Virus record (IMG/VR): IMGVR_UViG_3300031957_001682
Coordinates: 43,633 to 107,632 of that record
Strand: one strand, 5' to 3'
DNA length: 64,000 nt
Source: a virus
Part shown: positions 6,370-30,797 of the stretch, in pieces
Position numbering within the stretch: position 1 is the stretch's first letter
Layout of the letters: each line of letters begins with the position of its first letter
Position numbers and translations under genes: made by a program
The notes under the pieces: generated by a model
Database searches by the model: none
Seen by the model: the letters and a program-made list of their open reading frames with translations, nothing else
What the model was told of the DNA's origin: nothing

Positions 6370-6381
6370 AATTTCACCGCC

Positions 6382-6549: not shown

Positions 6550-6558
6550 GTGACCACA

Positions 6559-7014: not shown

Positions 7015-7016
7015 AC

Positions 7017-7352: not shown

Positions 7353-7362
7353 TTAAATCACC

Positions 7363-7719
7363 TCATTGAGAGTGTCGGCCAAAGGTTCCGGTGACACGGG
7401 TATAGTTTGATGGTCGAACTCCGTTTGAAACAGTACCAGTAAGTCGTTGTCCTTGAAGGGATTGAGCCGAAGCAGGTCGATTATCGAACTTCATAACAGG
7501 TGCGCCACCAGCGTAAATATCGTTAGGACCAATAGTAAGACCACTTTCAGCCTTAGCAATAGCGGCAGACAAATCTTCCGAAAGATAGTCTGCTACCTTA
7601 CGCAATTCATTCAATTGTTGCTTTGCTAAGTTAGCATCACCATCTGTCAAAGCACTAATGAATGCTTTTTGATGTTGTTCCATCTTTCTTGCCATTGGGT
7701 CCATTTTGATTAAATCCAT
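7363..7719 (-). CDS. Hypothetical virion-arm protein
   Basis: 118 residues with an alpha-helical N-terminal half (residues 5 to 60, ISALTDGDANLAKQQLNELR) and a Gly/Ser/Asn-rich tail. It lies 43 nt after the portal gene. No recognised domain. Its size and place are compatible with a scaffold or decoration protein, as inference only. Confidence 0.7.
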   Translation of the reverse strand: MDLIKMDPMARKMEQHQKAFISALTDGDANLAKQQLNELRKVADYLSEDLSAAIAKAESGLTIGPNDIYAGGAPVMKFDNRPASAQSLQGQRLTGTVSNGVRPSNYTRVTGTFGRHSQ

Positions 7720-7762
7720 GTTCAGCCCTACCTTATCCCATGTTGTTGCTCTTTAAGAGTCT

Positions 7763-10845: not shown

Positions 10846-10870
10846 ATTGGCTACCTCATTGTCCTATCAT

Positions 10871-11605: not shown

Positions 11606-11770
11606 TCAAAGTACACCGACCATTTTCTTAATGTCTTTTTGCTTGTCAATAAGAGCGTAACAGGGACACTTCGGAGAAGAAGCAGAACACTGCATAACAC
11701 CTTTAATCATGCAAACACATGGTGTTTTTTCGGTTCCACCACAGCAACAAGATTTTCTTTTAAGTTTCAT
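11606..11770 (-). CDS. Tiny Cys-rich protein
   Basis: 54 residues with CCCGG, CVC and CPCY clusters, compatible with zinc binding. The ATG overlaps the stop of the upstream 63-aa gene, and its own stop abuts the start of the DUF5872-like gene, so it is part of the same tight operon. Confidence 0.6.
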   Translation of the reverse strand: MKLKRKSCCCGGTEKTPCVCMIKGVMQCSASSPKCPCYALIDKQKDIKKMVGVL

Positions 11771-11958
11771 TTTTTCTTCCCCTTCTTCTTACCTTTGAAC
11801 TTACCTTTGCAATATTGAACAGCCCATCCATTTGCATAGGCTGATGGGTAAACATCGAACTTGCGCTTTGCCGCCGCTTTACCAGCGGGACACAGTTTCT
11901 TTTCTAATGCATCCCACGCTGTTGTCATTCCGACACAGTGACCGCAATAGCAACTCAT
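11767..11958 (-). CDS. Small conserved viral protein (FDVYPSAYANGWA family)
   Basis: 63 residues. The central stretch CPAGKAAAKRKFDVYPSAYA is a pattern I recognise from many marine viral proteins of unknown role; the tail is polylysine (GKKKGKKK). CYCGHC at the N-terminus may bind metal. GMTTAWDALEKK at residues 10 to 21 weakly resembles the EPMxxAWxxLLK tag of neighbouring virion proteins. Start taken at MSCYC because it gives a one-base junction with the upstream gene. Confidence 0.65.
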   Translation of the reverse strand: MSCYCGHCVGMTTAWDALEKKLCPAGKAAAKRKFDVYPSAYANGWAVQYCKGKFKGKKKGKKK

Positions 11959-11959
11959 A

Positions 11960-12436
11960 TCAATCACTTCTTTGCGTAAAAGGATTTGGTGGGTCACTAA
12001 AATCTAAGACTCTTTCTTTAGCATGTTGCGGAGGGGGTGCTTGTGGCATCGTACTTCGAGTCATCTGTCTTTGTTGAGCGAAAGATGCTGGATTGATTGT
12101 ACCGCCGGGCGTTGAAGGTGTGGTAGGTACATCATCACCAAGTTCCGGTGATTTAGTTTCATTCTTTTCTGCATTAGGGTCATTTACATTTCCCATTTGC
12201 ATACGGGCTTGTTGATGTTCTTCTCTCCCTGCTCGCATTCGTGCAATAGGAGTTGAAAATGGTTTACCTGTTTTATCAGTTTCTTTCATCTTCAAAAATT
12301 TCCAAGCGTCACCCATTGGGATTGCTTTCTTTTTGCTGTCCGGGTCTGCTGTTTTTTCCGGCGACTTAGGCGGCTTACCACCAAGTGCAATTACAACAAC
12401 CATGCCTTTCTTTTTCTTTTTATCGTCTTCTTTCAT
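11960..12436 (-). CDS. Disordered virion-arm protein with AWxxLK tag
   Basis: 158 residues, ATGA overlap with the stop of large terminase. A lysine-rich N-terminus, Pro/Thr/Gln-rich middle and no globular domain point to disorder. IPMGDAWKFLK (12290 to 12322) is one copy of the peptide tag found in other virion-arm proteins here. Function unknown; tag and position suggest a virion or head-assembly protein. Confidence 0.65.
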   Translation of the reverse strand: MKEDDKKKKKGMVVVIALGGKPPKSPEKTADPDSKKKAIPMGDAWKFLKMKETDKTGKPFSTPIARMRAGREEHQQARMQMGNVNDPNAEKNETKSPELGDDVPTTPSTPGGTINPASFAQQRQMTRSTMPQAPPPQHAKERVLDFSDPPNPFTQRSD

Positions 12437-13923
12437 GGTACTAACCATCCGTCGCCAGTTCCTTTATTTCGATGTGGCATACCACCGATGTACTCATCGA
12501 GTCCCGGTAGTATGTCATCGAGTAGTTGCACTGAACCTTTGAACTCTTTTGTTCCCCAGTTCGCTAAAGCAAGTGCCATTGCCAAGTCATCGTGAGTACC
12601 GACCGATTCAAGTCGCCCATTCTTTTGCATACCGAATCGGTTCAATTCTTCTTCTAATTTGTGAGTGAATGTACGACTTCGCTCATCACCATACGGCAAT
12701 TGAATGTGTCCTTGTTCAAAAGCCATAAGCAAAGACATGAACATACTTTCTTTGCGCTGGCGTGTTGTCATAAAAGTACGAATAGGAATATCGTTTCTCA
12801 TGTCTTGAAGTTCAGCGGCAAACATTCGCTGGAAGTTGTTTCCTTCAAGTTCAATCAAATCCGGCTGGAAGCGATTGTTAAGAGTGAGAATGTGTTTTTT
12901 CTGTGCTAATCCACCAAGTCCTTTTTCGTGAACGATACCGACAATTTGCTTTATGTTTTCACCGGGTGGTGTACGAAGCACAAGCATGGCTGTGTAGTCA
13001 GCGTTCTTATCCGAAGCAATCGCTGTGTCCCATCCAATGAAGTGCTGTCCGAACACACCAGCGGGATTACCTTCTTCGTCGTATTCGGTATCAGCCCTGT
13101 CAAGTAATACCAGTTCATTGTTGCGAGCCTCATTTAGAATTGTAGCAGGGAACATACTCGCAACATCGTGAATAGGTTCACACAAATACTCACGGCTGAA
13201 TTGGATAGCGGGCATGGACATACGCCGTTGCTCAAGTGCCTCAAGATTCCACCGTTCCGGCCAAAGCGCATTACCTTCCCCATCAATAGCAGGGTATGTT
13301 TCGACACGGAATGTTTCTTTTTGCTCAAGTTCTGCGTACAAATCGTTGTACGAAAACGGTGTACCGACCATCATCAAACGAGAAGAGTGGTGCAGAACAG
13401 GCAAAAGAACACCATAGAACCAGTCAGCGGCACGCTGTAGTTCTCCACCTGTAGTACCCCAAAGAATATCGTCGCAAACGACCACATCGGGGTGGAAACC
13501 ACGGGTAGCACCACCAACGGACTTAGCCATCAATCGGCTACCGTTAGTGAACTCAAAGTACGACTTAGCCCACGGTCGGCCACCTTCGGGCTTGAGGTGT
13601 CGAAGAATATCGGATGATTCAATGTTGTTGCGAATAAATCGCATGTGTTCAAGCGTCTGTTCAAGAGAGTGAGAAAAAATCATGATGTGTGTACCGGGTT
13701 TGAAAGCGGCAATCCAAAGAGCATAGGCCATGAACAAAGTGGATTTACCGTGGTCACGACTCGCTTTAACACAGTAGTATCGGTGTTCGTTCAATCCTGT
13801 TTCCCAAGACTCGTGGTGATGACTGTAATGAAAGCCCAAAATTTCTGTAAAGAAATACTTGAATGACTTGGCCGACATTTTGCTATCCATCTCGTGGATA
13901 AACGCATTCATGTCCTCTCCCAT
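12433..13923 (-). CDS. Large terminase subunit (TerL)
   Basis: 496 residues. Packaging motor ATPase and headful nuclease. Walker A is ASRDHGKST (K60), Walker B DVVVCDDI (D151, D152). The RNase H-like nuclease half shows GWDTAIASD, LIELEGNNF and THDDLAMALA with the expected acidic residues. ATG at 13923 is preferred because it has a GGTGA site 6 nt upstream and clears the previous stop by 4 nt; the frame could be extended upstream only by overlapping that gene. The downstream gene is coupled by an ATGA overlap. Confidence 0.95.
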   Translation of the reverse strand: MGEDMNAFIHEMDSKMSAKSFKYFFTEILGFHYSHHHESWETGLNEHRYYCVKASRDHGKSTLFMAYALWIAAFKPGTHIMIFSHSLEQTLEHMRFIRNNIESSDILRHLKPEGGRPWAKSYFEFTNGSRLMAKSVGGATRGFHPDVVVCDDILWGTTGGELQRAADWFYGVLLPVLHHSSRLMMVGTPFSYNDLYAELEQKETFRVETYPAIDGEGNALWPERWNLEALEQRRMSMPAIQFSREYLCEPIHDVASMFPATILNEARNNELVLLDRADTEYDEEGNPAGVFGQHFIGWDTAIASDKNADYTAMLVLRTPPGENIKQIVGIVHEKGLGGLAQKKHILTLNNRFQPDLIELEGNNFQRMFAAELQDMRNDIPIRTFMTTRQRKESMFMSLLMAFEQGHIQLPYGDERSRTFTHKLEEELNRFGMQKNGRLESVGTHDDLAMALALANWGTKEFKGSVQLLDDILPGLDEYIGGMPHRNKGTGDGWLVP

Positions 13924-13927
13924 TGTA

Positions 13928-14758
13928 TCACCGTGTCTTAATATACATGAAAGCGGCGAGTTCACCAATTTCATTTGGTGTCATTTTGTAAAGATTATCG
14001 GGTCCGAGTAAGTCGAATAACATTCCATTAAACGCTTTGGTGGGCATCAATACAGGTCTTGGTTGTCCGGTCACGGGGTCTATGGATGCTTGATACTGCG
14101 CCATCCCCGATGGATTCATTTGTTGTTGAACGGTACTTGCCATATTTGACTGATTCAATACATTGGGAGGTAGTGGTGGATTCATTTGTTGTTCAACGGT
14201 ACTTGCCATATCTTGCTGATTCAATACATTGGGAGGTAATGGCACAGCAGGTGCGGCAGTTGCGGCAGGTTGGGGTAATGCAGGTATGGGTGCGGCAGGT
14301 GCAGATGCTACAGGTGCAGGTACGGATGGTGAAGTTGATACATTTACAAGACCAGTGGATGAAGGTAATGGTACTCCACCTTCATTTGCCGCCATACCCG
14401 GAGCGGGTAATGGGATAGAATTGGGTTTAACCCCGACATGAGAATTTCCTTCAATTTGTCTTGCTGTGAATGCCCCTGTTGGGTCAAGTCCTTGATAGGT
14501 GTACCCTGCTCCAAGTGGAGCGGCTATGTTGCCACCTTGCATTGCATCAGCGGTGCTTAAAGCAGTAGCCCCTAAAGCCGCACCTTTACCAGCAAGTCCA
14601 GCAAGTCCAACCAATCGACCTGTTCTGCTAACTTTGGAACCGGGTTTTGTACCACGACCACGAACCGCATTGAACAAATCCATTGCCGAAGGACTACCTT
14701 GACCCACTGTTTGAAATTGAGTCACATCTGCTTTTACCAAAACTTTGTTGCTCACCAT
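13928..14758 (-). CDS. Low-complexity virion-arm protein with internal duplication
   Basis: 276 residues, rich in Ala, Pro, Gly and Gln. An N-terminal basic part is followed by a small-residue segment (GLAGLAGKGAALGATAL) that could be a glycine-zipper or membrane-active helix, then a Pro/Ala linker. Two 22-residue direct repeats (PLPPNVLNQ..MASTV.QQMN) come from a 66-bp tandem duplication. Directly upstream of TerL. No family; virion protein by context. Confidence 0.65.
   Translation of the reverse strand: MVSNKVLVKADVTQFQTVGQGSPSAMDLFNAVRGRGTKPGSKVSRTGRLVGLAGLAGKGAALGATALSTADAMQGGNIAAPLGAGYTYQGLDPTGAFTARQIEGNSHVGVKPNSIPLPAPGMAANEGGVPLPSSTGLVNVSTSPSVPAPVASAPAAPIPALPQPAATAAPAVPLPPNVLNQQDMASTVEQQMNPPLPPNVLNQSNMASTVQQQMNPSGMAQYQASIDPVTGQPRPVLMPTKAFNGMLFDLLGPDNLYKMTPNEIGELAAFMYIKTR
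14114..14245 (-). repeat. 66-bp tandem duplication
   Basis: Two nearly identical 66-bp units in frame inside the Pro/Ala-rich gene encode two copies of a 22-aa block. The few differences between units suggest a fairly recent duplication. Confidence 0.75.
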
Positions 14759-14759
14759 A

Positions 14760-16961
14760 TCACCCCATGTTTGTTTTTATGACTTTGATAATCTTAGCAT
14801 CAACATTGTAGGACTTAGCGATGTTGTGCCAATCTCCCATTGTTTGATTGATTGTCACGACCTCACTTGCGGTTAGCCCGACATGTTTCGCCAGTGCGTG
14901 TGGATTGTTAAGATTACTGTTAATTTTAATCCCCTCGAATCCGGCTTCTTCTTGTTGCATTCGCTCTAATGCTTTCATCACTCGGTCCATTACCGGTAGG
15001 TGTGCATCTTCGCTTCTTAGGTACTGGTCAAGTAATTGCTGTCTTGGGTCGGAAAGTGATTGTTGCGCCCTTCTTTCAATCGGTGTTAAAAATTCATCCG
15101 GTGCTGGACTTGCTCGACCTCCACCACCAGCAACCATCATTTCTCTAAATTGCTGTGGTGTTTGATTTGCAATCTGTGGTCTAACTTGCTGGAACCGTGG
15201 GTCAAGAGGCGTAGCCGGTGGGCCTTGTGGTCTTACCGCTACAGGAGGAAGAGGTGCCGCACCGGAGGGAGGTGGTGAAGAAACCGGAACCTGCGAAAGA
15301 GCGGAAGCAGGGGATTCCGGTGCGACTGTATCACCACTTGGGCGAATTGGCATGGCTGTACTTTCTGCAAAGTCTTCCATAGGGTGTAGGTATGCATCCA
15401 TGTGAGGGTCGAGTGTGGCATCAACTCCTTCTTCGGGATAATCTAAAAATTGCATATTTTTTGCTGGTTCTGTTTTTATGTCACCAATGGGCATTTTTAC
15501 TGGCAAACCCTGTGATTCTGCTTGGTGGTCGGCTAATGCTTCGATAATACCACGAAAACGCTCGACTTGACCCATAAGCCGCTCATCGTATCGTACACCA
15601 AATGCGTTTAACTGCTCACTGTCAATTGAATGATTACTCAAATTACTTCGCTCGGAGTCATCATCACTTAGACCGGACCTGTGAGCGAGTGCCATAAGAC
15701 GGGCGGCAGTGGTGTCTTTTCCTTTGCTACCACCCCTACCGGGTTTGAAATGACGACTTTGTTCATCATAGGACAAACCTTCTTCTCCTTCACCATAGAT
15801 ACCCATGAGGCTATTGAAATGCTTGTTAAAATCACCTTGACCCGGCCTACCAAACAAATACATCATTGCTGGTACATTTGCCATATCTTGAATTAAACTT
15901 CTTCGTAGTTCACTATCTTGAAGAATGACACGAAGTGGGCGTTGAATCATTTCGGGACTCGCTAAAGTGCCCACATTGATTGTAGCGGGTACATCGGGAA
16001 TTGCATCTATGTTGCCCAAAGCGTTTGTAATGGCCCTTTCAGCCATTTGATATAATCCATTTTTGTGTTCCCAACTACCTTTTTTTCCGGCTTTTTGTCC
16101 ACTTGCTTTTGTGTTAGGATAAAAGAAAATGTCCGGTAGGTGGTGAGTAGTTGATTCAGTGTGTACCGCAGTTTGTTCACTGAAATAATCATCGGGTGCC
16201 CTTGACATGTGTTGTGTGCTTATTTGATTCGGATGTTCTTGATATGAAGCATCAACTCGACCTTTAGGTGCTGTTTCACGAGCGTAAATGTAAGGTCTTT
16301 TTACAAAAGTTAAATCCGATGATACTTCAAATGGAACTCCATGTTCTCTTTCAAGAATTTGACCAAGTTCGTGATTAAAAGGAATAGAATATGATTCAAT
16401 AAAACGACCCATTGGGGTATAGTTTTTGTCACCGGGGGTGAAATTTTTGTTAGTGTAAGTGGTAATCAAAGAACCATTTTTGGTTTTTGTTGGGCGTTCG
16501 GAGTGGCCTTCTGTGCTGTCACCCGGAGGTAGCATTCCAGCCCTAATTTTTCTCCACGCCATGTTGTCAAAAGGTGGTAATGCGTGCATTCCATTATTCT
16601 TATCATCATCACCTTTGTGACTTGTATGGTTTTGATTAAACAATTGAATTGCTTTGTTAATCAAATCGACAGGATGTGCTTTGATACCATGTTTTTCTAA
16701 AAACCACCCTAAGCGTGTAGCCGCCGCATCAATACCGTGTTGATAACTTCCCATTGGTGTGTTGTAGTGTAGTTCACCGTGGTCACCCGGAGCAAACTCA
16801 CCTTCAAGAATTTCTCCTTGAGCATGTGCAAAGGCGGGTACATCTTCTTCTGTAGGTGGTCGAAACGCTGTTGCCGGTGGGTTGCGAATCATTGCCGCAC
16901 CCTGTGGGGTAAAATGCTTCATTCCCCATGCTTTAATCAATGGAAAACGAACAGGTATCAT
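14760..16961 (-). CDS. Large hypothetical virion-arm protein
   Basis: 733 residues. No recognised fold. The N-terminus RFPLIKAWGMK (residues 5 to 15) looks like a degenerate copy of the PxxxAW tag found at the N-termini of other genes in this arm. The body is polar; a Pro-rich linker lies at about residues 540 to 590, and a helical C-terminal domain (QLLDQYLRSEDAHLPVMDRV onward) ends in a possible small HTH-like fold. Start ATG overlaps the stop of the upstream gene by 4 nt. Likely a virion or ejected protein. Confidence 0.65.
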   Translation of the reverse strand: MIPVRFPLIKAWGMKHFTPQGAAMIRNPPATAFRPPTEEDVPAFAHAQGEILEGEFAPGDHGELHYNTPMGSYQHGIDAAATRLGWFLEKHGIKAHPVDLINKAIQLFNQNHTSHKGDDDKNNGMHALPPFDNMAWRKIRAGMLPPGDSTEGHSERPTKTKNGSLITTYTNKNFTPGDKNYTPMGRFIESYSIPFNHELGQILEREHGVPFEVSSDLTFVKRPYIYARETAPKGRVDASYQEHPNQISTQHMSRAPDDYFSEQTAVHTESTTHHLPDIFFYPNTKASGQKAGKKGSWEHKNGLYQMAERAITNALGNIDAIPDVPATINVGTLASPEMIQRPLRVILQDSELRRSLIQDMANVPAMMYLFGRPGQGDFNKHFNSLMGIYGEGEEGLSYDEQSRHFKPGRGGSKGKDTTAARLMALAHRSGLSDDDSERSNLSNHSIDSEQLNAFGVRYDERLMGQVERFRGIIEALADHQAESQGLPVKMPIGDIKTEPAKNMQFLDYPEEGVDATLDPHMDAYLHPMEDFAESTAMPIRPSGDTVAPESPASALSQVPVSSPPPSGAAPLPPVAVRPQGPPATPLDPRFQQVRPQIANQTPQQFREMMVAGGGGRASPAPDEFLTPIERRAQQSLSDPRQQLLDQYLRSEDAHLPVMDRVMKALERMQQEEAGFEGIKINSNLNNPHALAKHVGLTASEVVTINQTMGDWHNIAKSYNVDAKIIKVIKTNMG

Positions 16962-18625
16962 CCCATGTGCCCCCGCTTTGAAGTAAGATAACCAGCGGGG
17001 TCAAGTCCTAAACGACTTGAATTGGTTTCAAGATTTTGAGTAGGACCGTCATTCTTCTCATCTTCATCTTCATTCTGTTGCACACCGGCTGGATGCGCTG
17101 GCACTGCCCCTTCTTCAAAAGCCGACGCTGTACCCGCTTTTTTCATATTGGCTTTTTTTCTTTGAAGTTCAATTAACTGCCTCATCAATTGAAGCATTTC
17201 AACACGATTAGCGTGACGATTACCTTTGAGTAAATCACTTTCAGTACGCTCTTCACTCATCATCATTGTTGACGATGGTGCTGGCATACTCGGAACGCTA
17301 CTCATCGGTGGAGCCATCTGTGGCATTTGTGGCATGGCTGGCACACGAGGCATACGAGGCACACGAGGCATACGAGGGCGGCGCATTCTTCGGAGAGAAG
17401 GCTGTCGCATTTGTCCCGATTGACCCGGTAATAGACCAGTTAAACGCCCAGCACCAGTTGGTCCAGCAGTAAACGACCTTGCGCTGTGACGAGCGTGTGG
17501 AGAATATGTGTTGCGAACACCACCAAGAATTTTTTGTGATTCTTGCTGGCCCATGTATTGACGGTATTTTTGTGGGTCTTTACTCATGGGTTGCTTAGTC
17601 GCAATACCACGGTGACTCATTTCAACAGACAAGTGAGGCTTCATCAAACCTGTTTTCTTTCCACCCTTGATACCACGCATTCTTGCTTTAAATCGCTTCA
17701 TGGTTGCACCAACACCACCGCTTTGCCCACCCGGTGGTTTCTTGAATTGTCCAGTTGAAGGGCGGAACTCTCTTCGTTTTTCACGGCGACGACGAGCCTC
17801 TATTGTACCCATTGTGTCACGCTTAAGTAGTGTACTCCAAGCATCAGCCATTGGTTCACTCATGGTAAAACTTGTTTCATCATTAAACGGTACATCAGTA
17901 AAATCACGATATTTACCTTCTATATCATCAAACGGAGGTTGTGCATCATCAACTTGAAAATTATGTAAATCATATAATTTCTCAAAAAAATCTTCACGAG
18001 ATGTAGCACTTGCTAAGTGGTTTATGTCGGGTTGTTGGAAATCATCTGCAAGACCCTCATACAAATGGGGGTTATCTATCTGTTCTTGAATCCAATTATA
18101 CCATTCGGGGTGAACATCATTACGATTTGGCATTTTGTAATCGTGTTTGTATTGATTTTCACCGGGATGAACCGTAGGTTCTTCTTTCAACAATGTACTC
18201 CAAGCACCATCCATCGGCTCGCCTGTTCTTACGGCTGAATTACCCGTACCCATCGCTGAACCTGTACCTGTCTTTGCACCTGTGGCTAAATCGAGTAAAT
18301 GTCCACGACTACCAGCCGGTCCACCTTGAAGCCCTATCTCACGCTCATCATCACGCTTGTTACCGTCATCAAGACCGGGTTCTGTTTCCAATCCCGCCCC
18401 TTGACCTAACCCTTGAGATGGTTTAATTTTGATGTGTTTGATTTCTTTGGCCTTTTTCTTAGCCTCTTCTTCTTTGAGTTTTTTTGCTTCTGCCCGCTTT
18501 TCATTATCTTCGGGTGAAGTAGGGTTGTATTTACCCTCATCTTCATTAGCAGAAGAATACATGTGAGATGATTCACTACGGGGTGCATACATGCGTGTGT
18601 CCGAACCTCGACCCATAACCATCAT
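16958..18625 (-). CDS. Disordered virion-arm protein with two EPMxxAWSTLLK tags
   Basis: 555 residues, highly charged and Met/Pro/Arg-rich. It carries two copies of the shared tag: GEPMDGAWSTLLK at residues 135 to 147 (18185 to 18220) and SEPMADAWSTLLK at 256 to 268 (17822 to 17857). After the second tag a strongly basic region (ARRRREKRREF, MKRFKARMRGIKGGKK) would bind DNA, followed by an MPRVPRMPRVP repeat. Each tag starts a different module, as in the 909-aa protein. Coupled by ATGA overlap to the upstream gene. Possibly a packaged DNA-binding protein. Confidence 0.65.
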   Translation of the reverse strand: MMVMGRGSDTRMYAPRSESSHMYSSANEDEGKYNPTSPEDNEKRAEAKKLKEEEAKKKAKEIKHIKIKPSQGLGQGAGLETEPGLDDGNKRDDEREIGLQGGPAGSRGHLLDLATGAKTGTGSAMGTGNSAVRTGEPMDGAWSTLLKEEPTVHPGENQYKHDYKMPNRNDVHPEWYNWIQEQIDNPHLYEGLADDFQQPDINHLASATSREDFFEKLYDLHNFQVDDAQPPFDDIEGKYRDFTDVPFNDETSFTMSEPMADAWSTLLKRDTMGTIEARRRREKRREFRPSTGQFKKPPGGQSGGVGATMKRFKARMRGIKGGKKTGLMKPHLSVEMSHRGIATKQPMSKDPQKYRQYMGQQESQKILGGVRNTYSPHARHSARSFTAGPTGAGRLTGLLPGQSGQMRQPSLRRMRRPRMPRVPRMPRVPAMPQMPQMAPPMSSVPSMPAPSSTMMMSEERTESDLLKGNRHANRVEMLQLMRQLIELQRKKANMKKAGTASAFEEGAVPAHPAGVQQNEDEDEKNDGPTQNLETNSSRLGLDPAGYLTSKRGHMG

Positions 18626-21613: not shown

Positions 21614-22330
21614 TCAAGTTGTTAATAAGTCAATCATGGTTTCTTCCACATTCCATCCTATTCGTGTAGCCATAAAAGACCTGCGAGTAGGTATGTTTGC
21701 TTTTTGAAGTCGAATTAAATCATCTCGAAATGCATCAAAGATTTTGTGTTCACCAATGCGGTTTTGTTGCCAAAGCATAGCGGCATTTTCATCAAAAAAT
21801 CGGTCGGCTTTGTTAGCCACAAGCATAACTAAACGAGGTGCGTACTTTTTACCCTTCCAACGACTTTTGAAGTTTCTATACCGATATGAGCGATTGATTA
21901 AACTATCAACAAGATACTTGAAGCCAGCAATTTGTTGCAATGCTTCTTCACCACCTTTTATTGCCCTGTCATCAAAAACAAATAAAACGGCTTCAACTTG
22001 TCTTCCTACCATATCGTCAATCCAAAGATTCCAAAACCGTTCTTGTCCTCCTACATCGGATGAATACACCACTCGCTTTTGTCCTTTCCAAGAAATGCGT
22101 TTACGAGTTGCTTTAGGCATCATGTATCGACCAAGTAATTTCATGTGTGAAGTTCGCTCTTCATCACTTATTTCTTCCATTTCACCCGGAGTTGTCATGT
22201 ATCGGTCAAGTGTAGTTTTACCTACCATTGCCGCTCCATAGACACCTACTTTTCTTGGTCGCCAAGAGTTGTATAACATTTGACCATAAAGAGCCGCACC
22301 TACAAGTGCTGAACCTGCTGGGTCAACCAT
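21614..22330 (-). CDS. Arf/Ras-like small GTPase
   Basis: 238 residues with all recognisable G motifs: G1 GAAMVGKT (residues 32 to 39), G3 DVGGQERFW (92 to 100, the Arf/Sar-type DxGGQ), G4 NKAD (173 to 176) and a G5-like ATRIGWNVEE (221 to 230). G2 is not certain. Residues 5 to 22 (AGSALVGAALYGQMLY) form a small-residue hydrophobic or amphipathic helix, comparable in place to the membrane-binding helix of Arf proteins. It is co-transcribed with two membrane proteins just upstream. Expected activity is GTP binding and hydrolysis at a membrane. Small GTPases are rarely reported in viruses. The fold call is strong; the role is unknown. Confidence 0.88.
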   Translation of the reverse strand: MVDPAGSALVGAALYGQMLYNSWRPRKVGVYGAAMVGKTTLDRYMTTPGEMEEISDEERTSHMKLLGRYMMPKATRKRISWKGQKRVVYSSDVGGQERFWNLWIDDMVGRQVEAVLFVFDDRAIKGGEEALQQIAGFKYLVDSLINRSYRYRNFKSRWKGKKYAPRLVMLVANKADRFFDENAAMLWQQNRIGEHKIFDAFRDDLIRLQKANIPTRRSFMATRIGWNVEETMIDLLTT

Positions 22331-23302: not shown

Positions 23303-26032
23303 TCAAAGTAAGGTTCCTTTGTCCTTGAAATGCCTCGCTCGGTTGGTATGAGGGTCTTCGGGAACAATAGTGTGCTGGCTGGTGTGGCTCATGTCCGGTC
23401 CACCCTGTCCCATAATGTGTCGTTGTCGGCGTTCACGGTTAAGTTCCTCTCGATACTTCACACGCTCCGGGCTGGACTCGTACTTCTTGTCGTACTCCAA
23501 CTTATGCCGCTTGGCTTCGGGGCTTACACGCTCTTTAAGTAATCGCATAGCAATCTCCATTGGTTCGCCTTGCTGTATCATTTGCGGTTGTTGAGATTGT
23601 AAATGATTCCAATACTCATAGGTATCGGGTCTATGTTGTAGCATTTCATTAACCCCCGTTTGATTTGATTGGTCCGATTGATGTGCACCATATTCATGAG
23701 CATACACTCTTGCTTGATTAGCCAACGCAACTCTTTGTTTTTCAGCATCCATTTCGGCTTGGTTTGTAGGTTTGGTCTTTAATCTTTGTAAAAAAGAGGC
23801 TCCTTGCATATCTGTAGGATATTCGGGTTTTACTTGAGATTGTAATGGCCCATGTTGTTGTTCTGCCCATTCATTTATTTCGGGGTTAATTAGACTGTGC
23901 GTATATTCATGCCCAAGAGTGTTTGCTAATCCTTGTATAGATTCATCACTGTCGTTTATACCACGCACATCAGCCCCAATAAAATCCCCATTTGATTGAA
24001 GTCGTGGTTGAGAGCCACCGGTTGTGTAATCACCTTTATTTTGAATTTCTTGCACAGTATTTTTATCCACTCCACTCATTCGATTCATAGTTTGATTGCG
24101 AGGTATTGATAGCAATGCTTCATTGCTAATATCGGCAGGTGTATAAAATCCCTGCATACCTTCTTCGTCATCACCAATATAGAACTCTTTGAGCAAACGC
24201 ATAGCAATATCCATTGGTTCGCCTTGCTGTATCATTTGCGGCTGTTGTACTTGCGGCTGTTGTACTTGCGGCTGTTGTACTTGCGGCTGTTGTACTTGCG
24301 GCTGTTGTAATGGTAATTGTTGTTGATTTGGGTCTGTTGGTTGTACAACTGGGTTAGGTTGCATGTATTGAGCCATTCGTTGATTATAGTCATCCGTAAT
24401 TTGTTCACGATTTTTCCCCCATCTCATTCTGTATGGCTCTTTAGGTCTAACTTCACCTCTTTGATTTGTTTGTTGAAGATTGGGTGTATCAATTTCTGTA
24501 TTTTCTCTTTGTGCTATTTGCCCTCCTATTGATAAAGCGGGTTGTGACATGGCTGTATTTATCTCATTTTGGTTATTTGTTCTCGCATGTGCTGTGTTTT
24601 CTAATACTGAATTTGTAATGGGTGTATTGGTTAAAAATTGTCTTGGTATATTTCCACCGTAATGTGTTGCATCACTAAAATCAACTGTTTGTCCTTGCGC
24701 TGTTTTAAAATTATGACTTGGGCCTATGAAATTTGGATGGTTTTGGTCGAAAGCGGCTTGTCTTATTGCTAATAATTTAGGTTTGGAGTGTGTACCTCCA
24801 CCATGATGACCCACACTTCTATCAATTGCATAACTAAGTGCTTCCGAAGGATTTGTACTCATGGTGCGGTAATTATCACTATGTGTTTTTAAACCATCTC
24901 CACCCATTATTTTTCTTGCATCATCACCCGTAGTTCCGTGATAAGCAACTACAGGGCCGTAAGGTGAAGGAAAGTCTTCATGATGCTCGCCTAAATTAGT
25001 TTGATATTTAAGCAACCGCATAGCGAGGTCCATTGGTTCGCTTCTATAGAATTGTGTTGGGTTTTTTAATGCACCCGGAATTGCAGTTAATTGGTCATCG
25101 AGTAATTGCATTTGTTCGGGCGAAGTATGTGTTTCATCTAATTCTGCTACACGCCCCGATGGTCCCATAGTTCGTTCCCATTGTTGAAAAGTACCATGTA
25201 ATGGGTCCATACCCCCACCTATGTTTCCTGTTAAATCGTTGAGGTTTTCTGTTATAGAAGAAATTACTTTTCCATCCGGTCCTATTTTTGTTGGTACAAT
25301 ATCTTGGAATGATTTTATACCATAGGCTCTTGCTGTTTGTGGGTCAATTAAAGCACCCGGAATTTCAGCATCCATTATCATTTGGGCAAGTTCACGAGCA
25401 CGATGACGCTGTGCTCCTTCCAGTCCTATTCTTGATGGAGGGGCATCTTTACTTCTTGGTAAAAACATACTTGCGGCTCTTTGAAGGTCATAAAGCATAA
25501 ATGGGTTTTTGTTAAGTCGGCGTACACTGTCTTCTTCTAAATCACCATAAATGATTCCTTCGGGGTCTTGATTTTTACCGTATCTTTCCGGTGTACTTTC
25601 AAAACCATACAAATTTAAAGGCCATGCTCTTTTACTTTCGGGTACATCAACAAATTCGCTACCTTGTCTTGGTGTTAAACCCATTGCATGACTCGGAAAA
25701 ACAAACCTTCCTCCAAGTGGCTCATCAGTCATTATGGTTTCAAGTGGTAGTTCTTCCCCTCGACCCATTTCTAAATTATGGTCCCTAAAACTTGTATTTT
25801 CACGATTGGCAAGTTTTCTTGCTAAATGTAAATTTTTACTTGGGTGGTATTTACTGGTATTTTGTGCAGAAGTTAATCTAAGTGACCTATTTGGAGAGTA
25901 TCTTTGGTGAAAACCAGCCATAAGTTCATCGAATTTTCGCTCATTATACTCACGAATAATTTCATCCCAACGCTCATTTTGGTTTTTAAGAAGGAGGAAA
26001 GCCTGTTCCATTGGCTCTAACTCTCTACGCAT
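23303..26032 (-). CDS. Modular virion-arm protein: ART-like and zincin-like modules, four EPMxxA tags
   Basis: 909 residues. Four copies of the tag EPM(D/E)xAMRLLK or close variants lie at residues 6 to 16, 332 to 342, 605 to 615 and 823 to 833, each opening a new module. After tag 2, VVAYHGTTGDDARKIMGGDG and YRTMSTNPSEALSYA resemble an ADP-ribosyltransferase-type fold (HGT...GL...S-T-A). After tag 3, LGHEYTHSLINPE is a zincin-like HExxH (residues 708 to 712), with a second HEYGAH at 779 to 784. After tag 4 a basic C-terminal module (YREELNRERRQRHIMGQGGP) resembles conserved tails of marine viral proteins. A Pro/Gln repeat separates modules 2 and 3. Probably packaged in the head and delivered to the host; catalytic activities are inference. 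Confidence 0.7.
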   Translation of the reverse strand: MRRELEPMEQAFLLLKNQNERWDEIIREYNERKFDELMAGFHQRYSPNRSLRLTSAQNTSKYHPSKNLHLARKLANRENTSFRDHNLEMGRGEELPLETIMTDEPLGGRFVFPSHAMGLTPRQGSEFVDVPESKRAWPLNLYGFESTPERYGKNQDPEGIIYGDLEEDSVRRLNKNPFMLYDLQRAASMFLPRSKDAPPSRIGLEGAQRHRARELAQMIMDAEIPGALIDPQTARAYGIKSFQDIVPTKIGPDGKVISSITENLNDLTGNIGGGMDPLHGTFQQWERTMGPSGRVAELDETHTSPEQMQLLDDQLTAIPGALKNPTQFYRSEPMDLAMRLLKYQTNLGEHHEDFPSPYGPVVAYHGTTGDDARKIMGGDGLKTHSDNYRTMSTNPSEALSYAIDRSVGHHGGGTHSKPKLLAIRQAAFDQNHPNFIGPSHNFKTAQGQTVDFSDATHYGGNIPRQFLTNTPITNSVLENTAHARTNNQNEINTAMSQPALSIGGQIAQRENTEIDTPNLQQTNQRGEVRPKEPYRMRWGKNREQITDDYNQRMAQYMQPNPVVQPTDPNQQQLPLQQPQVQQPQVQQPQVQQPQVQQPQMIQQGEPMDIAMRLLKEFYIGDDEEGMQGFYTPADISNEALLSIPRNQTMNRMSGVDKNTVQEIQNKGDYTTGGSQPRLQSNGDFIGADVRGINDSDESIQGLANTLGHEYTHSLINPEINEWAEQQHGPLQSQVKPEYPTDMQGASFLQRLKTKPTNQAEMDAEKQRVALANQARVYAHEYGAHQSDQSNQTGVNEMLQHRPDTYEYWNHLQSQQPQMIQQGEPMEIAMRLLKERVSPEAKRHKLEYDKKYESSPERVKYREELNRERRQRHIMGQGGPDMSHTSQHTIVPEDPHTNRARHFKDKGTLL
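24240..24310 (-). repeat. 15-bp tandem repeat coding PQVQQ
   Basis: Four and a half copies of GGCTGTTGTACTTGC in frame give a QPQVQ-type linker between the ART-like and zincin-like modules. Confidence 0.85.
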
Positions 26033-26091
26033 ACGCACCAGTTGGTGGTAAAAAGCGATACCATTTAGAATGCTCGCCCGCTACGAGAGTC

Positions 26092-27609
26092 ATGGGCCGA
26101 CATGTTGCTGTGCGTAAAGCACCTACTCCGGCTGATGCTGGGGGTGCAGTTGCAGGTCGAGCCGCCGGAGGCGGTATAGGTAGTGCCATAGGTGGTGTTT
26201 TAGGTTCTATTATCCCCGGTGCTGGCACTGCGGCTGGTGCTTCTGCTGGTGGTGCAGTTGGTGGTGCAGTTGGTGGTGCAGTTGGAAAAGTTGGTGCTAA
26301 GAAAATTGCTGTTGGAGCCGCTGAAATGGCACAAAATCAAGCCAATGCTCAAGCCGCTCAATCACAACAAACCATGCAGAATAACATTCAAAGCGCAAAG
26401 GACACGGCTCAACAAGCCAAAGACCAAGCCGGTATCGAAAAGGCTTGGAAGTTTCCAGCAAGAATGATGCACCCGGAATTTAAATCATATCGGGATAGCA
26501 TTATTGAGCGGGCTAAAAAAGCACCTCGACAAGATGAAGATTTTCGTCAAAACCAGCATTGGAATGAACGCATGGGTCATAAAGAAGGCAGACCCCAAGA
26601 GGCTCGCTACATTCCAAACCAACACTTTGAACATGAAGATGAAGTACACAACATTACTCCATTTCAAGTTGCTTATGCTACATTGCAACACATGAAAGAA
26701 AATAGGTTAATTGATGAAGACAATCACGATGCTGTAGCATTGCGGGAATTACTTCATACTGACCAACCACACCCCGACCCTAATCAAATGGAAAGTGGTA
26801 TGGCTCACATATTTTCTCCTGTAATGGATATTAGGACTATGAGGGGTAAATCAGCACACGCTCAACCATTTATTGACCCAAAGGGTGCAAAAACACAGCA
26901 TATTTACGCACAAGATGTAGTAAAACCCGATAATCTTTCATATTCATCACAAGAAAAAATTGCTGTGCGACCAAAATCAATTGTAAATGAATATATGCCC
27001 GGTAAAAGAGCAAAACCAAGTGAAGAAGAACTTATTGACAGTTTTATTGACACTCCGGCAAGTAAATTACAAAGAAATTTTGGTATTGAAGACAATAGAC
27101 TTGCAGGGCAAGAATATATTGCTCAAAGAAAATATGAAAAAGAACAAGCCAAACAACAAGCGGCTCAACAGGCTCAACAAGAAGCACAGGCTAAAGAAGA
27201 ACAATTTCAACAACAACCAATAACAGTAAATGATATGGGCGGTGTGTACTTTGTCACAGACCCCGCTTACGGTTATAATGGTGAAATGATGGATTATCAA
27301 CAATTAGTTCAAGGTGGGTATGACAAATATCTTAACAATGATAACAAAAGTGAACCAATGGACTTAGCGTGGCAAATGTTGTTTAAAGCGGGTGTTGAAG
27401 TTCACCACGATGAACCACTGCCGCAAGAGTTTACTCAAGACATTACTACACTTGACCGTCAACACAAAATGGTTCCAACAGAAAACGGCACTATGATTGA
27501 CAATATCAGCCCACACATGCTCCGTACCATTGAACTAATGGCGCAAAATCACAAAGATGATGATACTTTCACACCTAAACCATTTAAAATGCCTACAACT
27601 TTTCATTGA
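26092..27609 (+). CDS. Glycine-zipper protein with tag near C-terminus
   Basis: 505 residues, rightward inside the leftward arm. Residues 17 to 72 are a long glycine-zipper (AGGGIGSAIGGVLGSIIPGA then GGAVGG repeats), a pattern of membrane-inserting or pore-forming proteins, followed by a Gln/Ala-rich coiled coil. A second coiled coil is at about residues 345 to 385. SEPMDLAWQMLFK (27352 to 27387) is a tag copy near the C-terminus. ATG 26092 is preferred over TTG 26011, which would overlap the divergent 909-aa gene. Possible DNA-ejection or pore protein; inference from composition. Confidence 0.65.
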   Translation: MGRHVAVRKAPTPADAGGAVAGRAAGGGIGSAIGGVLGSIIPGAGTAAGASAGGAVGGAVGGAVGKVGAKKIAVGAAEMAQNQANAQAAQSQQTMQNNIQSAKDTAQQAKDQAGIEKAWKFPARMMHPEFKSYRDSIIERAKKAPRQDEDFRQNQHWNERMGHKEGRPQEARYIPNQHFEHEDEVHNITPFQVAYATLQHMKENRLIDEDNHDAVALRELLHTDQPHPDPNQMESGMAHIFSPVMDIRTMRGKSAHAQPFIDPKGAKTQHIYAQDVVKPDNLSYSSQEKIAVRPKSIVNEYMPGKRAKPSEEELIDSFIDTPASKLQRNFGIEDNRLAGQEYIAQRKYEKEQAKQQAAQQAQQEAQAKEEQFQQQPITVNDMGGVYFVTDPAYGYNGEMMDYQQLVQGGYDKYLNNDNKSEPMDLAWQMLFKAGVEVHHDEPLPQEFTQDITTLDRQHKMVPTENGTMIDNISPHMLRTIELMAQNHKDDDTFTPKPFKMPTTFH

Positions 27610-27617
27610 GGGATAGT

Positions 27618-27734
27618 ATGGAATGGCGTTATTGGGCTGATGCTGTACTTGCTGTTTGTTTAATTCCTATTTTACTCATTGCAATAACGGTACTTTATGT
27701 TCCTTTTCGTTTAATGCAATTTGTTGTGCGATAG
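27618..27734 (+). CDS. 38-aa membrane peptide
   Basis: 38 residues, nearly all one TM helix (ADAVLAVCLIPILLIAITVL). GAGGG lies 5 nt before the ATG and the gene follows the glycine-zipper gene by 8 nt. Its end overlaps the convergent lyase gene by 59 bp. Small size keeps confidence moderate. Confidence 0.5.
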   Translation: MEWRYWADAVLAVCLIPILLIAITVLYVPFRLMQFVVR

Positions 27735-28521
27735 TTGATGCAACTTTAAGTGTGTCAATGCACACACCGGTTTCAAAACCCCATACATTAAGATGCAATA
27801 CCAGTGTTTCGGTTGACAAGTTTGCTCCACTATTGTCAACAAACGGACAACCGCCGAGTCCACCGATGCTTGAGTCAAACTCACGAACACCAGCCATAAG
27901 ACCCGCACGAATTAGTTGCAATGCTTTTTCTTCGTCACCTTTGTGATGTAAATGCAATGCGGGAGTCATACCTTCGAGTATAGCCATCTCGGACCACAAA
28001 TGTACCTCTTCTCTTGTTCCTACCCCCACTGTATCAGCAAACACTACAGTATTGCCAAACATTTTTGCATCTTTAATGCACGATTGCATGGTTAATGGGG
28101 AAACTTGACCACTGAATGGACTACCAAACGCCATGCTGATGTACACACGCACATTTTCCTTTGGTGTTTTATCCAAGAATGTTTTGTACATCAACACAAG
28201 TTCACTTCGGGTTTTTCGCATGTTTTTCATGTTGAAGGTTTCACACGGGCTAATGACTATGTTGATTTTTTTAGCACCAACAGCAATGGCTCGGTCAAAA
28301 CCACGCTTGTTCATGACAAGCGCACCGCCACGCTGATACACTTTTTCAGCATCAGCCATTTGCGGCACAAGTTTTGGGTGTGCAAAACTAACTTCTTCAA
28401 TTTCTGTCAAGCCAGCGTCGTATAATGCATCAATAAGTTCGGTTTTTTTAGAAGTGGGTATTGGAAATTTAAGTGATTGCAAACCGTCACGAGGGCCAAC
28501 CTCGTACACGGTCACTTTCAT
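27676..28521 (-). CDS. HMG-CoA lyase-family enzyme (DRE-TIM metallolyase)
   Basis: 281 residues, near the normal length of about 300. HMG-CoA lyase splits 3-hydroxy-3-methylglutaryl-CoA into acetyl-CoA and acetoacetate with a divalent metal. Family residues are visible: VGPRDGLQ (R11, D12), IEEVSFAHPKLVPQM (E42), ADTVGVG, metal ligands H190 and H192 in LHLHHKGD, and the active-site loop GLGGCPF (C225) with N234 and E238. The Asp after that Glu is Thr here. All known catalytic positions appear kept, so it is probably active. ATGA overlap with the upstream membrane-protein gene shows it belongs to the virion-arm operon. Related aldolase-type lyases cannot be excluded. Confidence 0.88.
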   Translation of the reverse strand: MKVTVYEVGPRDGLQSLKFPIPTSKKTELIDALYDAGLTEIEEVSFAHPKLVPQMADAEKVYQRGGALVMNKRGFDRAIAVGAKKINIVISPCETFNMKNMRKTRSELVLMYKTFLDKTPKENVRVYISMAFGSPFSGQVSPLTMQSCIKDAKMFGNTVVFADTVGVGTREEVHLWSEMAILEGMTPALHLHHKGDEEKALQLIRAGLMAGVREFDSSIGGLGGCPFVDNSGANLSTETLVLHLNVWGFETGVCIDTLKVASTIAQQIALNEKEHKVPLLQ

Positions 28522-28718
28522 TCAATTCCCTTCCTCATACCGTTCCAGCACCCTTCTTCCAATTCTTCTTTAGTAGAAAAGTAAATTACATCACTACCGA
28601 GGTCATCAAATAAAAACCATACAAAAGCAAAACCCGCAATAAAAGCAAGTCCAAAAAAAAGCCACAAACTCATGTTGTAAGACAGTGCGGTGTAGAAATT
28701 AAACCTTTCGCTAATCAC
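28518..28718 (-). CDS. Single-TM membrane protein
   Basis: 66 residues with one TM segment at about residues 16 to 38 (MSLWLFFGLAFIAGFAFVWF) and a charged C-terminus. GTG start overlaps the upstream stop; an internal ATG at 28673 would remove the first 15 residues. Translationally coupled to the HMG-CoA lyase, so the two may act together at the membrane. Confidence 0.6.
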   Translation of the reverse strand: MISERFNFYTALSYNMSLWLFFGLAFIAGFAFVWFLFDDLGSDVIYFSTKEELEEGCWNGMRKGIE

Positions 28719-29659
28719 TGTCCACCAATAAATGGCGAAGTGCTTCTTGCGGCTCGGCCTTGCATACGAGGTGTGACTCTTGGCTCATCCATTTGTCCAC
28801 GCTTGTTTTGACGAGGACTTCCTCTTAAGTTTGTTGAAGCAATGTTATGTGCCGCTGGATTGTTTTCATGAAGTGGTTCATTTTCATATTCACTCTCTAC
28901 ATCGTCATCATACATTTGATTTAGGTCAAAAATACTTCCGCCCTCATCGTATGTTCTATCGACTATATCCGGCTTACCCGCTTTACGACCTGCGCCAGCG
29001 GCCCAATCATGCAAACTATTTTGTAAGTGTTGAGTTGTAACGGGTTTTTGAGTGAATGGGTTTTCAAATGGGCCTAATCGGTTTAAATGACCTACATACT
29101 CGTCATGCCAATCGGGGTCATGTGAGGCCATTTCATTACTTATGTCATCACTACCAACAGGAGGTCTGCCGGAACTTCCAGCCCGGCCTTCGTTTGGGGC
29201 TGGACCCCTGCCGCCAATTGAACGACTCATAGGCATACCTGTTTCATCCATTTCCGGCATACCCATTGCATCCATTTCATCGGCTTCGGGTTGTTGACCC
29301 ATGCGGGCAAGAGTTTGTCGGTCAAGGTCGTCTTGTAATCTTTCAAAGTGACTTTCTTCACCTTCATGACCCATAGCGTTAATGAGTTGGTCCTCTATTT
29401 CCTTTTGATTGAGCCTTTGGTTATCTAAAAATGCCATAGCGTCAGCCATACTGTTAATATGTGGAGTTTGAGTACCCGCCATTTCAATTTCATTTAATGC
29501 ATGTTTTTGTCTGCTTGCGGCATCAACACGCCTATCAGTCAAATCTTGTGGACTCAAACTTCTTGCAGGGTTATCGCCGTCTATGGTTGGTGGGGGTAAA
29601 TTTAGTTCGTGACCACGCTGTTTCAATAGCATCCACGCTTGATTAAAAGGGGCGACCAT
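28715..29659 (-). CDS. Tagged, mostly disordered virion-arm protein
   Basis: 314 residues. The N-terminus APFNQAWMLLK (29621 to 29653) is a tag copy. The rest is polar, Asp/Glu/Met/Pro-rich and probably disordered, ending in a basic Arg-rich tail. No domain recognised. The tag at the very start is comparable with the next upstream gene. Confidence 0.65.
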   Translation of the reverse strand: MVAPFNQAWMLLKQRGHELNLPPPTIDGDNPARSLSPQDLTDRRVDAASRQKHALNEIEMAGTQTPHINSMADAMAFLDNQRLNQKEIEDQLINAMGHEGEESHFERLQDDLDRQTLARMGQQPEADEMDAMGMPEMDETGMPMSRSIGGRGPAPNEGRAGSSGRPPVGSDDISNEMASHDPDWHDEYVGHLNRLGPFENPFTQKPVTTQHLQNSLHDWAAGAGRKAGKPDIVDRTYDEGGSIFDLNQMYDDDVESEYENEPLHENNPAAHNIASTNLRGSPRQNKRGQMDEPRVTPRMQGRAARSTSPFIGGQ

Positions 29660-29683: not shown

Positions 29684-29797
29684 TTAACGATTAAGAAACA
29701 TTTGATTATTCAATGTGATATAAGACCACGAAATAAACACAACCACTAAAAGGGCCAATGCTAATGCGTCACTGCGGGTTATTTCCTTGCCTTTCAT
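29684..29797 (-). CDS. 37-aa membrane peptide
   Basis: 37 residues: a short basic N-terminus (MKGKEITRSD) and one TM helix (ALALALLVVVFISWSYITL). Overlaps the 3' end of the 342-aa gene by 29 bp, which is compatible with coupling. Confidence 0.5.
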   Translation of the reverse strand: MKGKEITRSDALALALLVVVFISWSYITLNNQMFLNR

Positions 29798-30797
29798 AAA
29801 AACCTTGATTATTATAATATCCGTCGTACAACGGAGGGGATTCATTTTCAAAATTTGGGTCAAATCTTTGTTGCTTGGTATTTCTTGCCATTGGTTGTGT
29901 GGTATCATACTTCGCCGTTTCCGCTATATGACCTTGACCTCGCCTAATTTTAAGTCTGTCTTGTTCGGCTAACTCATCCATGTTTCTTGCTTGATTTTTT
30001 TGATTGACGATAGGAATTGCACCGTAATCTTGTCTGTTTAATCCACTACGCTGTCCTCGTGCATCAAGGAACTGTGGTACATCTTGCCGTTGATAACCAA
30101 GTGCTTGATGATGACTACCATCATCTTCTGTAAGGTGGTCACCTTTAATATTCGCTGGTAAATTTTGCATAAATTTACGATGGAATGGGTCGGATTGGTA
30201 GTTTCGTTCGTTTGATACTATTGGAATACCTGCTCCAATTAAGGCTTGCATTAAATTCCTGTACATATTTTGTCTTCGATATGGTTCCGGTGTACTACCG
30301 TAAAAATCATGGATTTGTGGGTTGTATTTATCTCCACCATGTCCCGATATTTGTGAAAGCACTTCACCTTCATCATTTACAAGTGAAAAATCTTTCTTAC
30401 CACGATTATTATCACGAGGTGATATCTCAATTCGGGAGGGAACAGCCTCACGACGATTACTTTCACGACCCATTCTCGCATTTAATTTTCGCTGTTCCGA
30501 TACCTTTGGGTCACGATTTATACTACCATCGTTTTCAAATGTGGTTTGAAATGGCTGGTTTTTGGGCCACGGGTAATCGGGATTTTTCTTAGTCATCATT
30601 CCAGCGAGTATTCGTTCTGCTGATTCTTCAATTAGTTCATCATACCTTTCATCAGTCATCCAGTGCGGTTGTGGATTTGCGCCTCTTGCCAACTCATACG
30701 CTTTATGTTGCAATTGAAGATTGATTTCTTCCACCAGTGTTAGCGGGTACGGCTCATTTTTCAACAAAGCCCATGCAGAATTGAATGGACCTTCCAT
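29769..30797 (-). CDS. Tagged virion-arm protein, first gene of the leftward arm
   Basis: 342 residues. Opens with GPFNSAWALLK (30759 to 30791), a tag copy. The middle part, about residues 145 to 220 (SLVNDEGEVLSQISGH, then YRRQNMYRNLMQALIGAGI), looks globular and is loosely like an acetyltransferase-type domain, but this is uncertain. A polar tail follows. A TATA box (minus-strand ATTTTTTATAC, 30819 to 30829) lies about 27 bp before the ATG, so the message is nearly leaderless. Confidence 0.65.
   Translation of the reverse strand: MEGPFNSAWALLKNEPYPLTLVEEINLQLQHKAYELARGANPQPHWMTDERYDELIEESAERILAGMMTKKNPDYPWPKNQPFQTTFENDGSINRDPKVSEQRKLNARMGRESNRREAVPSRIEISPRDNNRGKKDFSLVNDEGEVLSQISGHGGDKYNPQIHDFYGSTPEPYRRQNMYRNLMQALIGAGIPIVSNERNYQSDPFHRKFMQNLPANIKGDHLTEDDGSHHQALGYQRQDVPQFLDARGQRSGLNRQDYGAIPIVNQKNQARNMDELAEQDRLKIRRGQGHIAETAKYDTTQPMARNTKQQRFDPNFENESPPLYDGYYNNQGFYERQGNNPQ

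Follow-up and report, generated by a model that had tools for sequence, protein, structure and literature searches.

The ORF at 23303-26038 encodes a chain of unrelated modules, each standing behind a copy of an 11-residue tag, and the same tag is found at the N-terminus of stand-alone late proteins. We put at about one half the probability that its product is a head-delivered precursor of polyvalent effectors, whose modules carry tags like the capsid targeting sequence (CTS) of T4 and would be loaded into the head and probably cleaved close to the tags. The modular anatomy, the conservation of the tag, the ADP-ribosyltransferase (ART) fold of one module, the late-gene context and the presence of an S78 prohead protease are set out below, and from them we infer packaging, cutting, injection and enzymatic action on host targets. 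The DNA analyzed (the window) is a stretch of 64,000 nucleotides, corresponding to bases 43633-107632 of a 107,632-base virus record.

Modular anatomy of the ORF

The ORF is uninterrupted and can start at a GTG or at an ATG two codons downstream, the latter fitting the end coordinate given in a first-pass annotation of this DNA. The four tags recognized in that annotation lie exactly where it placed them, and its remaining landmarks are likewise present in the translation: VVAYHGTT...GDGL...YRTMSTNPSEALSYA after tag 2, HEYTH and then HEYGAH after tag 3, and a basic C-terminal module after tag 4, which corresponds to phrog_6437. Its proposal of one tag per module is supported by the anatomy of the ORF, which is as follows.

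23303-26038 (-): tag-punctuated polyvalent protein ORF, 911 aa from GTG at 26038 or 909 aa from ATG at 26032
25985-26017 (-): tag 1, EPMEQAFLLLK, N-terminal copy, 5 residues past the ATG
25040-25984 (-): module 1, ~315 aa, no assigned fold
25007-25039 (-): tag 2, EPMDLAMRLLK
24590-25006 (-): ART-fold module, YHGT at 24932-24943
24950-24994 (-): ART lead-in LGEHHEDFPSPYGPV, conserved ahead of ART-type modules
24221-24343 (-): Q/P-rich low-complexity linker, ending in QPQMIQQG, an octamer that recurs before tag 4
24188-24220 (-): tag 3, EPMDIAMRLLK
23567-24187 (-): HExxH (zincin-like) module, TLGHEYTH at 23897-23920 and AHEYGAH at 23681-23701
23534-23566 (-): tag 4, EPMEIAMRLLK
23303-23533 (-): C-terminal basic module, phrog_6437 (E 8e-16)

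No Pfam family matched the whole protein or the modules in the window, and a search of IMG/VR for the whole protein by exact peptide patterns gave no match; IMG/VR relatives came instead from alignments of the tag and of the modules. For module 1 a single relative was found (L025, 41% identity over ~120 aa). The C-terminal module shares 41–56% identity with cyanophage proteins, and is present in all seven genomes compared, either standing alone or joined to varying partners. In this comparison, the PolB proteins of the other six genomes are 36–50% identical to that of the window.

Distribution and conservation of the tag

The tag follows the pattern [GS]EPM[DE]xA[WMF]RLLK and occurs in four copies in the ORF. 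A degenerate DNA pattern for EPMDxAWxLLK matched 32 stretches in IMG/VR, where fewer than one chance match is expected by a hand estimate. Within the ORFs of the fetched loci the tag pattern was matched 221 times, against a mean of 0.0 in residue-shuffled ORFs, and 180 of the 192 sites seeded with P[MF][DEN]xA[WMF] were completed by two hydrophobic residues and K/R, so that chance can be set aside as the origin of the tag. All loci together contain 200 tag copies in distinct contexts, representing 133 peptide sequences. No two of the ten copies of EPMDLAWRLLK have the same DNA sequence, indicating that the constraint acts on the protein. When diverged relatives were aligned pairwise, identity was higher in the internal tag than in the 25 aa flanking it in 57 of 63 cases (by a median of 20 points), a figure that is biased upward because the query tags were chosen by pattern, and in which related sequences are not independent.

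Of 118 small tagged ORFs, 97 have a Met no more than 10 residues upstream of the tag; internal copies mostly come after GE or SE (the E of the tag standing behind G or S). It is a family-wide device, opening stand-alone late proteins and preceding the modules of polyproteins, and it shares with a CTS the property of being a short N-terminal peptide common to otherwise unrelated late proteins. The tag is predicted to form a helix ending in LLK.

The virus and its head-gene neighborhood

The record encodes PolB, an RFC-like clamp loader, an ERCC4 nuclease and a thermosome-type chaperonin, along with TerL, portal, an S78 prohead protease and an HK97-type MCP, the last recognized by its similarity to annotated MCPs of archaeal viruses. 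The nearest relatives of its MCP and PolB are from haloarchaeal tailed viruses, and in an MCP tree Druskaviridae such as HVTV-1 fall among the magroviruses (PMC8651126). Typical magrovirus genes include those for PolB, DNA ligase, ERCC4 nuclease and prohead protease (PMC10160649). Compared with that description, the record carries the gene set of a magrovirus (PolB, ERCC4 nuclease, DNA ligase, portal, terminase, MCP and prohead protease, in an archaeal virus genome of ~90–110 kb), the DNA ligase being a weak domain match only. Based on these PolB and MCP affinities and on gene content (PMC8651126, PMC10160649), rather than on placement in a reference tree, we regard the virus as a magrovirus-like tailed virus of marine archaea.

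The S78 protease gene spans the low end of the window and the MCP gene lies just beyond it. The head genes within the window, and the tagged genes outside the ORF described above, are:

433-14758 (-): head genes for a 1978-aa ligase-fusion protein, portal and TerL, in the same operon direction
11960-12448 (-): late protein with one tag, IPMGDAWKFLK
16958-18625 (-): conserved late protein with two tags (EPMDGAWSTLLK, EPMADAWSTLLK)
26011-27609 (+): divergent neighbor with a glycine-rich (pilot/tape-like) stretch and one tag, EPMDLAWQMLFK, at 27352-27387
28715-29659 (-): late protein with N-terminal tag APFNQAWMLLK
29769-30797 (-): late protein with N-terminal tag GPFNSAWALLK and a GNAT-like stretch, EPYRRQNMYRNLM, seen by eye and without a Pfam match

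Across the seven genomes, tagged genes cluster around, and are co-oriented with, the genes for GTPase, TerL, portal, ligase fusion, S78 protease and MCP, and no tagged gene was found in the replication block of any of them. Exceptions on the opposite strand are rare, namely a tagged phrog_6437 gene in one relative (G001) and 26011-27609 in the window; one tag in another genome (G003) is probably a false positive. Both the S78 prohead protease and the MCP are encoded in 24 of the 24 relatives tested.

Several other genes of this region deserve mention. Near its C-terminus, the 1978-aa head-cluster protein (433-6369, minus strand) gives a weak match to an ATP-dependent DNA ligase domain, with a KWYDGKR motif; it is conserved in the seven genomes, where portal and S78 protease flank it, coverage being low in some. 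The GTPase, a small Ras/Roc-like protein (21614-22330, minus strand), is found in the neighborhood of tagged genes and TerL in all seven genomes with 59–75% identity. By eye, the C-terminal part of 9547-10845 (minus strand) is similar to LAGLIDADG homing endonucleases (AYAAGFLDADGSIFISE), and 27676-28521 (minus strand), amid the late genes, resembles HMG-CoA lyase and is a possible metabolic gene.

Probable module shuffling among tagged genes

Modules of one kind can form a separate protein with an N-terminal tag in one virus and part of a polyprotein in another, and tandem stand-alone tagged ORFs may abut or overlap (e.g., L043:164-763 and 763-1188). The simplest history suggested by these arrangements would be fusion and fission of adjoining tagged genes, with the tag carried along. 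Tagged proteins gave weak to clear matches to the HD, DnaJ zinc finger, GNAT, DUF5872 and DUF6321 families, and ParB-like and further GNAT modules were identified by eye.

Two further features of this gene pool were observed. In the window, 10871-11605 (minus strand) joins a DUF5872-like basic N-terminus to a ParB-like module; in its relatives in L015, L030 and L031 a tag precedes the ParB-like part, whereas the corresponding stretch here is SVLVKAPIVDT, which looks like an eroded tag. The L034 genome encodes a small basic protein of DUF6321 type (L034:11198-11536, minus strand), the N-terminus of which (SPADLAFAVIKAKKEKPFHGYNP) resembles a diverged tag, and a stand-alone tagged protein adjoining the tail genes (L034:9919-10596, minus strand) that is the second ART-type protein of this genome and belongs to the R-type (see below).

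The ART module

Relatives of the module following tag 2 were collected by aligning it with those of L014, L018 and L033 and then scanning IMG/VR, which gave 74 loci. They have a common lead-in, RQTxLGEfHpDfPSsxGPV (95 matched places in viral loci, with redundancy not removed), after which they divide into a YHGT type and an R-type. Scanning GTDB genomes with the ART profile revealed no relative of cellular origin.

It had been suggested at first pass that the modules be folded separately and compared with fold libraries, and for this module the outcome was an ART fold. The AlphaFold2 model, built from 24 sequences, had a pLDDT of 80 and a pTM of 0.72; Foldseek placed KptA/Tpt1 on top, followed mostly by other ART enzymes. 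VIA aligned the model to TkoKptA with a Z of 10.3 (rmsd 2.7, 89 residues), compared to Z 6–7 for other ARTs, and among the VIA matches listed ART enzymes dominate. When the alignment profile was run against PDB sequences, only Tpt1, exotoxin A-type and diphtheria ARTs were matched, with E up to 1. Taken together, the model and the Foldseek, VIA and profile matches establish the fold as far as prediction allows, and we are confident in the predicted ART fold, with KptA/Tpt1 nearest.

Activity is another matter. The copy in the window retains the H of YHGT and the R of AIR; at the position of the strand-2 Tyr it has, by alignment, a Met, and there is no conserved third catalytic residue, and none that is acidic. 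Of the residues of the H-Y-[EDQ] clade only the H is kept, and because the second and third positions are missing, it is doubtful, judging from its residues, that this copy is an active ADP-ribosyltransferase. The first-pass assignment to this class thus stands for the fold and not with any assurance for the enzyme. Among the relatives, the first-strand H and the R of AIR are invariant (24/24), most have Y or F in strand 2 (by eye), and the Glu motif is retained in 25 of 30 of the R-type. The active site is not of the R-S-E kind found in T4 Alt (Alt/VIP2), since the first-strand residue is the invariant H, and kinship with T4 Alt is rejected on this ground (PMC5512222). The earlier picture of a takeover kit like T4 Alt remains apt for what such a protein would work like; it fails as a statement of membership, given that Alt belongs to the R-S-E clade (PMC5512222) and the predicted fold here is KptA/Tpt1-like.

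The HExxH module

The motif pair of the module after tag 3 (TLGHEYTH...AHEYGAH) is closely matched in L112 (TLGHEYTH...AHEVGAH), and similar HExxH modules lie behind tags in seven loci (L047, L048, L052, L054, L101, L126 and L136). A chain in L052 has, by eye, both an HExxH module and an ART-like module, with a tag-like stretch ahead of each, the same combination as in the window. An alignment of five modules showed HExxH and HExxA to be invariant. Non-redundant segments following tags contained 15 HExxH motifs, some of which are ParB-like HEGRH and not zincin, against a mean of 2.8 and a maximum of 9 in shuffled segments. Searches restricted to the zincin-like module returned one new contig, found twice.

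Separate folding was less informative here: the AlphaFold model had a pLDDT of 40 with three sequences only, a failure attributable to too few relatives. Pfam and PDB profile searches gave no supporting match for this module, the PDB matches all being to unrelated proteins. The combination of HExxH with a downstream Glu helix motif is that of zincins at the motif level only, and we accept the motif, describing the module as zincin-like by motif.

Proposed packaging and cutting

The process we envisage is as follows. The 11-residue tag would bring each late protein into the prohead, as CTS does for T4 internal proteins, and tandem stand-alone tagged genes would have fused to give the polyproteins. 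As the head matures, the chain would probably be cleaved close to the tags; the simplest candidate for this is the viral S78 prohead protease, possibly with help from the HExxH module. The separate modules would stay in the capsid and then enter the host with the DNA.

The candidate cut site is the LLK end of the tag. It resembles a predicted maturation region of the MCP, LLK[AS]D[AS]P, and the C-terminal boundary of the S78 domain, ILK[EQ][DE], a match that is confounded and weak because both proteins are conserved overall. The related HK97 protease cuts its own MCP after a lysine (K103). This likeness and the HK97 lysine cut suggest, but do not show, that the prohead protease cuts at the tags. 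The LLK-like motifs of the S78 protease may simply be edge strands of its fold; as possible autoprocessing sites, the [LI]LK motifs in this protease were given little weight, since they coincide with expected edge strands. The ART lead-in (RQTxLGEFHPDFPSPxGPV) was also considered as a T4-type LxE cut site and rejected: its LGE is invariant yet confined to ART-type modules, and so cannot be a general signal.

The reading of a tag-directed, packaged and cut precursor is favored by the N-terminal placement of the tag, selection at the protein level, the clustering with head genes and the S78 protease in 24/24 relatives. The LLK likeness also counts for it, as do the overlap of the modules (ART, HExxH, ParB-like, GNAT, HD and Zn-finger) with the polyvalent repertoire (PMC5512222), the HVTV-1 chain of Zeta kinase and ART with a repeat, and the T4 CTS precedent (PMC9026906). 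Weighing against it are the two triad positions missing from the ART of the window and the opposite-strand tagged genes mentioned above; moreover, the LGE of the ART lead-in could be the cut site instead, and one tag might suffice per chain, the repeats then providing avidity rather than cut sites.

Several alternatives were considered. The tag could be a docking motif for some other late partner (portal, tail, the Ras-like GTPase or a host protein), the proteins being unpackaged assembly or late-phase factors. Its generic, amphipathic-looking character would suit such a role, the GTPase gene is conserved near tagged genes in 7/7 genomes, and tags also occur in structural-looking proteins (16958-18625 and L035:18535-19377); however, a repertoire of ART, GNAT, ParB-like and HExxH modules suits early host-directed effectors, and the position of the genes beside the head genes and the CTS-like N-terminal placement of the tag point away from docking, which we consider rather unlikely. 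We rate no higher the chance that the chain is packaged uncut, its repeated tags binding the prohead core multivalently, and is injected whole like the N4 virion RNA polymerase. That polymerase is indeed packaged unprocessed despite its metallopeptidase domain (PMC5512222), and the cut site here is a candidate only; against this, many relatives have a single tag per short protein, so multivalency is not generally needed, and internal tags remain aligned with individual modules.

Two other explanations concern the modules themselves. The ART- and zincin-like folds may be catalytically dead decoration, retained in minor head proteins for binding or as filler, as might be read from the ART of the window (H kept, Met at the Tyr position, no acidic third residue) and from the poor zincin-module model (pLDDT 40, three sequences). 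This appears unlikely in view of the relatives, in which H and R are invariant (24/24), Y or F is found in most (by eye), the Glu motif persists in 25/30 of the R-type, and HExxH...HExxA is invariant across divergent zincin-like modules. Distinctly improbable is a zincin-like module that processes the polyprotein by autoproteolysis, as proposed for phage P1 DdrB and for polyvalent metallopeptidases (PMC5512222). The module does sit within the chain, but most tagged polyproteins lack such a module and some zincin-like proteins stand alone behind a tag, so it is unlikely to be a general cutter of tags.

Returning to the packaged and cut precursor, a stronger version can be offered tentatively, in which a single interchangeable 11-residue capsid ticket, opening dozens of small effectors and preceding every module of the polyproteins, would be both targeting helix and prohead-protease cut site, and the maturing capsid would dice the polyprotein into combinatorial injected effectors. 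To our knowledge, a CTS-like cargo code has not previously been described for archaeal viruses. If the tag is a packaging signal, the T4 CTS idea would extend to archaeal viruses, and the composition of the head cargo would become directly testable. With the shared tag as a simple rule, unknown proteins that probably reach the archaeal host can be flagged, and a large set of exchangeable modules of ART-, zincin-, ParB- and GNAT-like type comes to light.

Comparison with known systems

The closest parallel in architecture is with the polyvalent proteins (Iyer et al. 2017, PMC5512222), long chains with ART, zincin-like metallopeptidase and other unrelated modules that are encoded with head and packaging genes and predicted to be injected with the DNA. 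The present ORF appears to combine at least two unrelated domains (the predicted ART fold, phrog_6437 and the HExxH module), and in seven genomes such genes are encoded with virion and head genes. It differs in belonging to an archaeal magrovirus-like lineage, in having an 11-residue tag between modules that is common to stand-alone genes, in its KptA-like rather than N4-type ART, and in the absence of any Pfam match, including to the polyvalent ART and metallopeptidase families; as the polyvalent class is defined by architecture, this absence excludes named domain families only. The first-pass annotation had stressed the union of ART and protease in one chain, and the HExxH motif and ART fold do share the ORF, but this combination has already been described for polyvalent proteins (PMC5512222). 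What is new is the CTS-like tag shared between modules.

In T4, CTSs of ~10 residues carry both targeting and processing information and take internal proteins into the prohead core (PMC9026906). As with T4 Alt and the CTS-bearing internal proteins, otherwise unrelated late proteins carry an N-terminal tag of this size here, the virus has its own prohead protease gene, and the cargo would include an ART; the differences are that the tag is repeated internally before each module, the ART is of H-type and not Alt-like R-S-E, and the roles of the tag in targeting and cutting are putative. The ART lobe of the KptA/Tpt1 tRNA 2'-phosphotransferase is the best fold match (Z 10.3) and the best PDB profile match, but its N-terminal lobe is absent here, identity over the shared lobe is ~15–26%, and RNA phosphotransferase activity is not indicated. 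Small cyanophage proteins of phrog_6437 are matched over most of the length of the C-terminal module; they are mainly hypothetical (one match also spans a lysozyme gene), and here the module is fused behind a tag.

The nearest archaeal parallel is gp115 of HVTV-1 (L149:16303-20244), a virus whose MCP is 37% identical and for which no PDB entry of the MCP was found. In gp115 a Zeta kinase (E 3e-20) and an ADPrib_exo_Tox ART (E 1e-8) occupy one chain, with a repeated element between the modules (WVSDPTEQAPNRWTxTxTGEHRYQETKP, LKDWVSDPTEQAPNRWT...), and its gene lies between that for the MuF-like gp114 and the prohead protease. ART genes have been noted in HVTV-1 and HCTV-5 (PMC8651126). Both gp115 and the present protein are multi-module products of the head cluster of related archaeal tailed viruses, with an element repeated between modules, whereas the tag sequence, the ART clade (ADPrib_exo_Tox) and the modules of gp115 are its own; a loose pattern for the 11-aa tag gave one weak match only in the late halves of HVTV-1 and HCTV-1. 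By this analogy, archaeal tailed viruses may more widely place repeated elements between their effector modules, and since HVTV-1 can be grown in a laboratory host, Haloarcula vallismortis, the idea is open to experiment.
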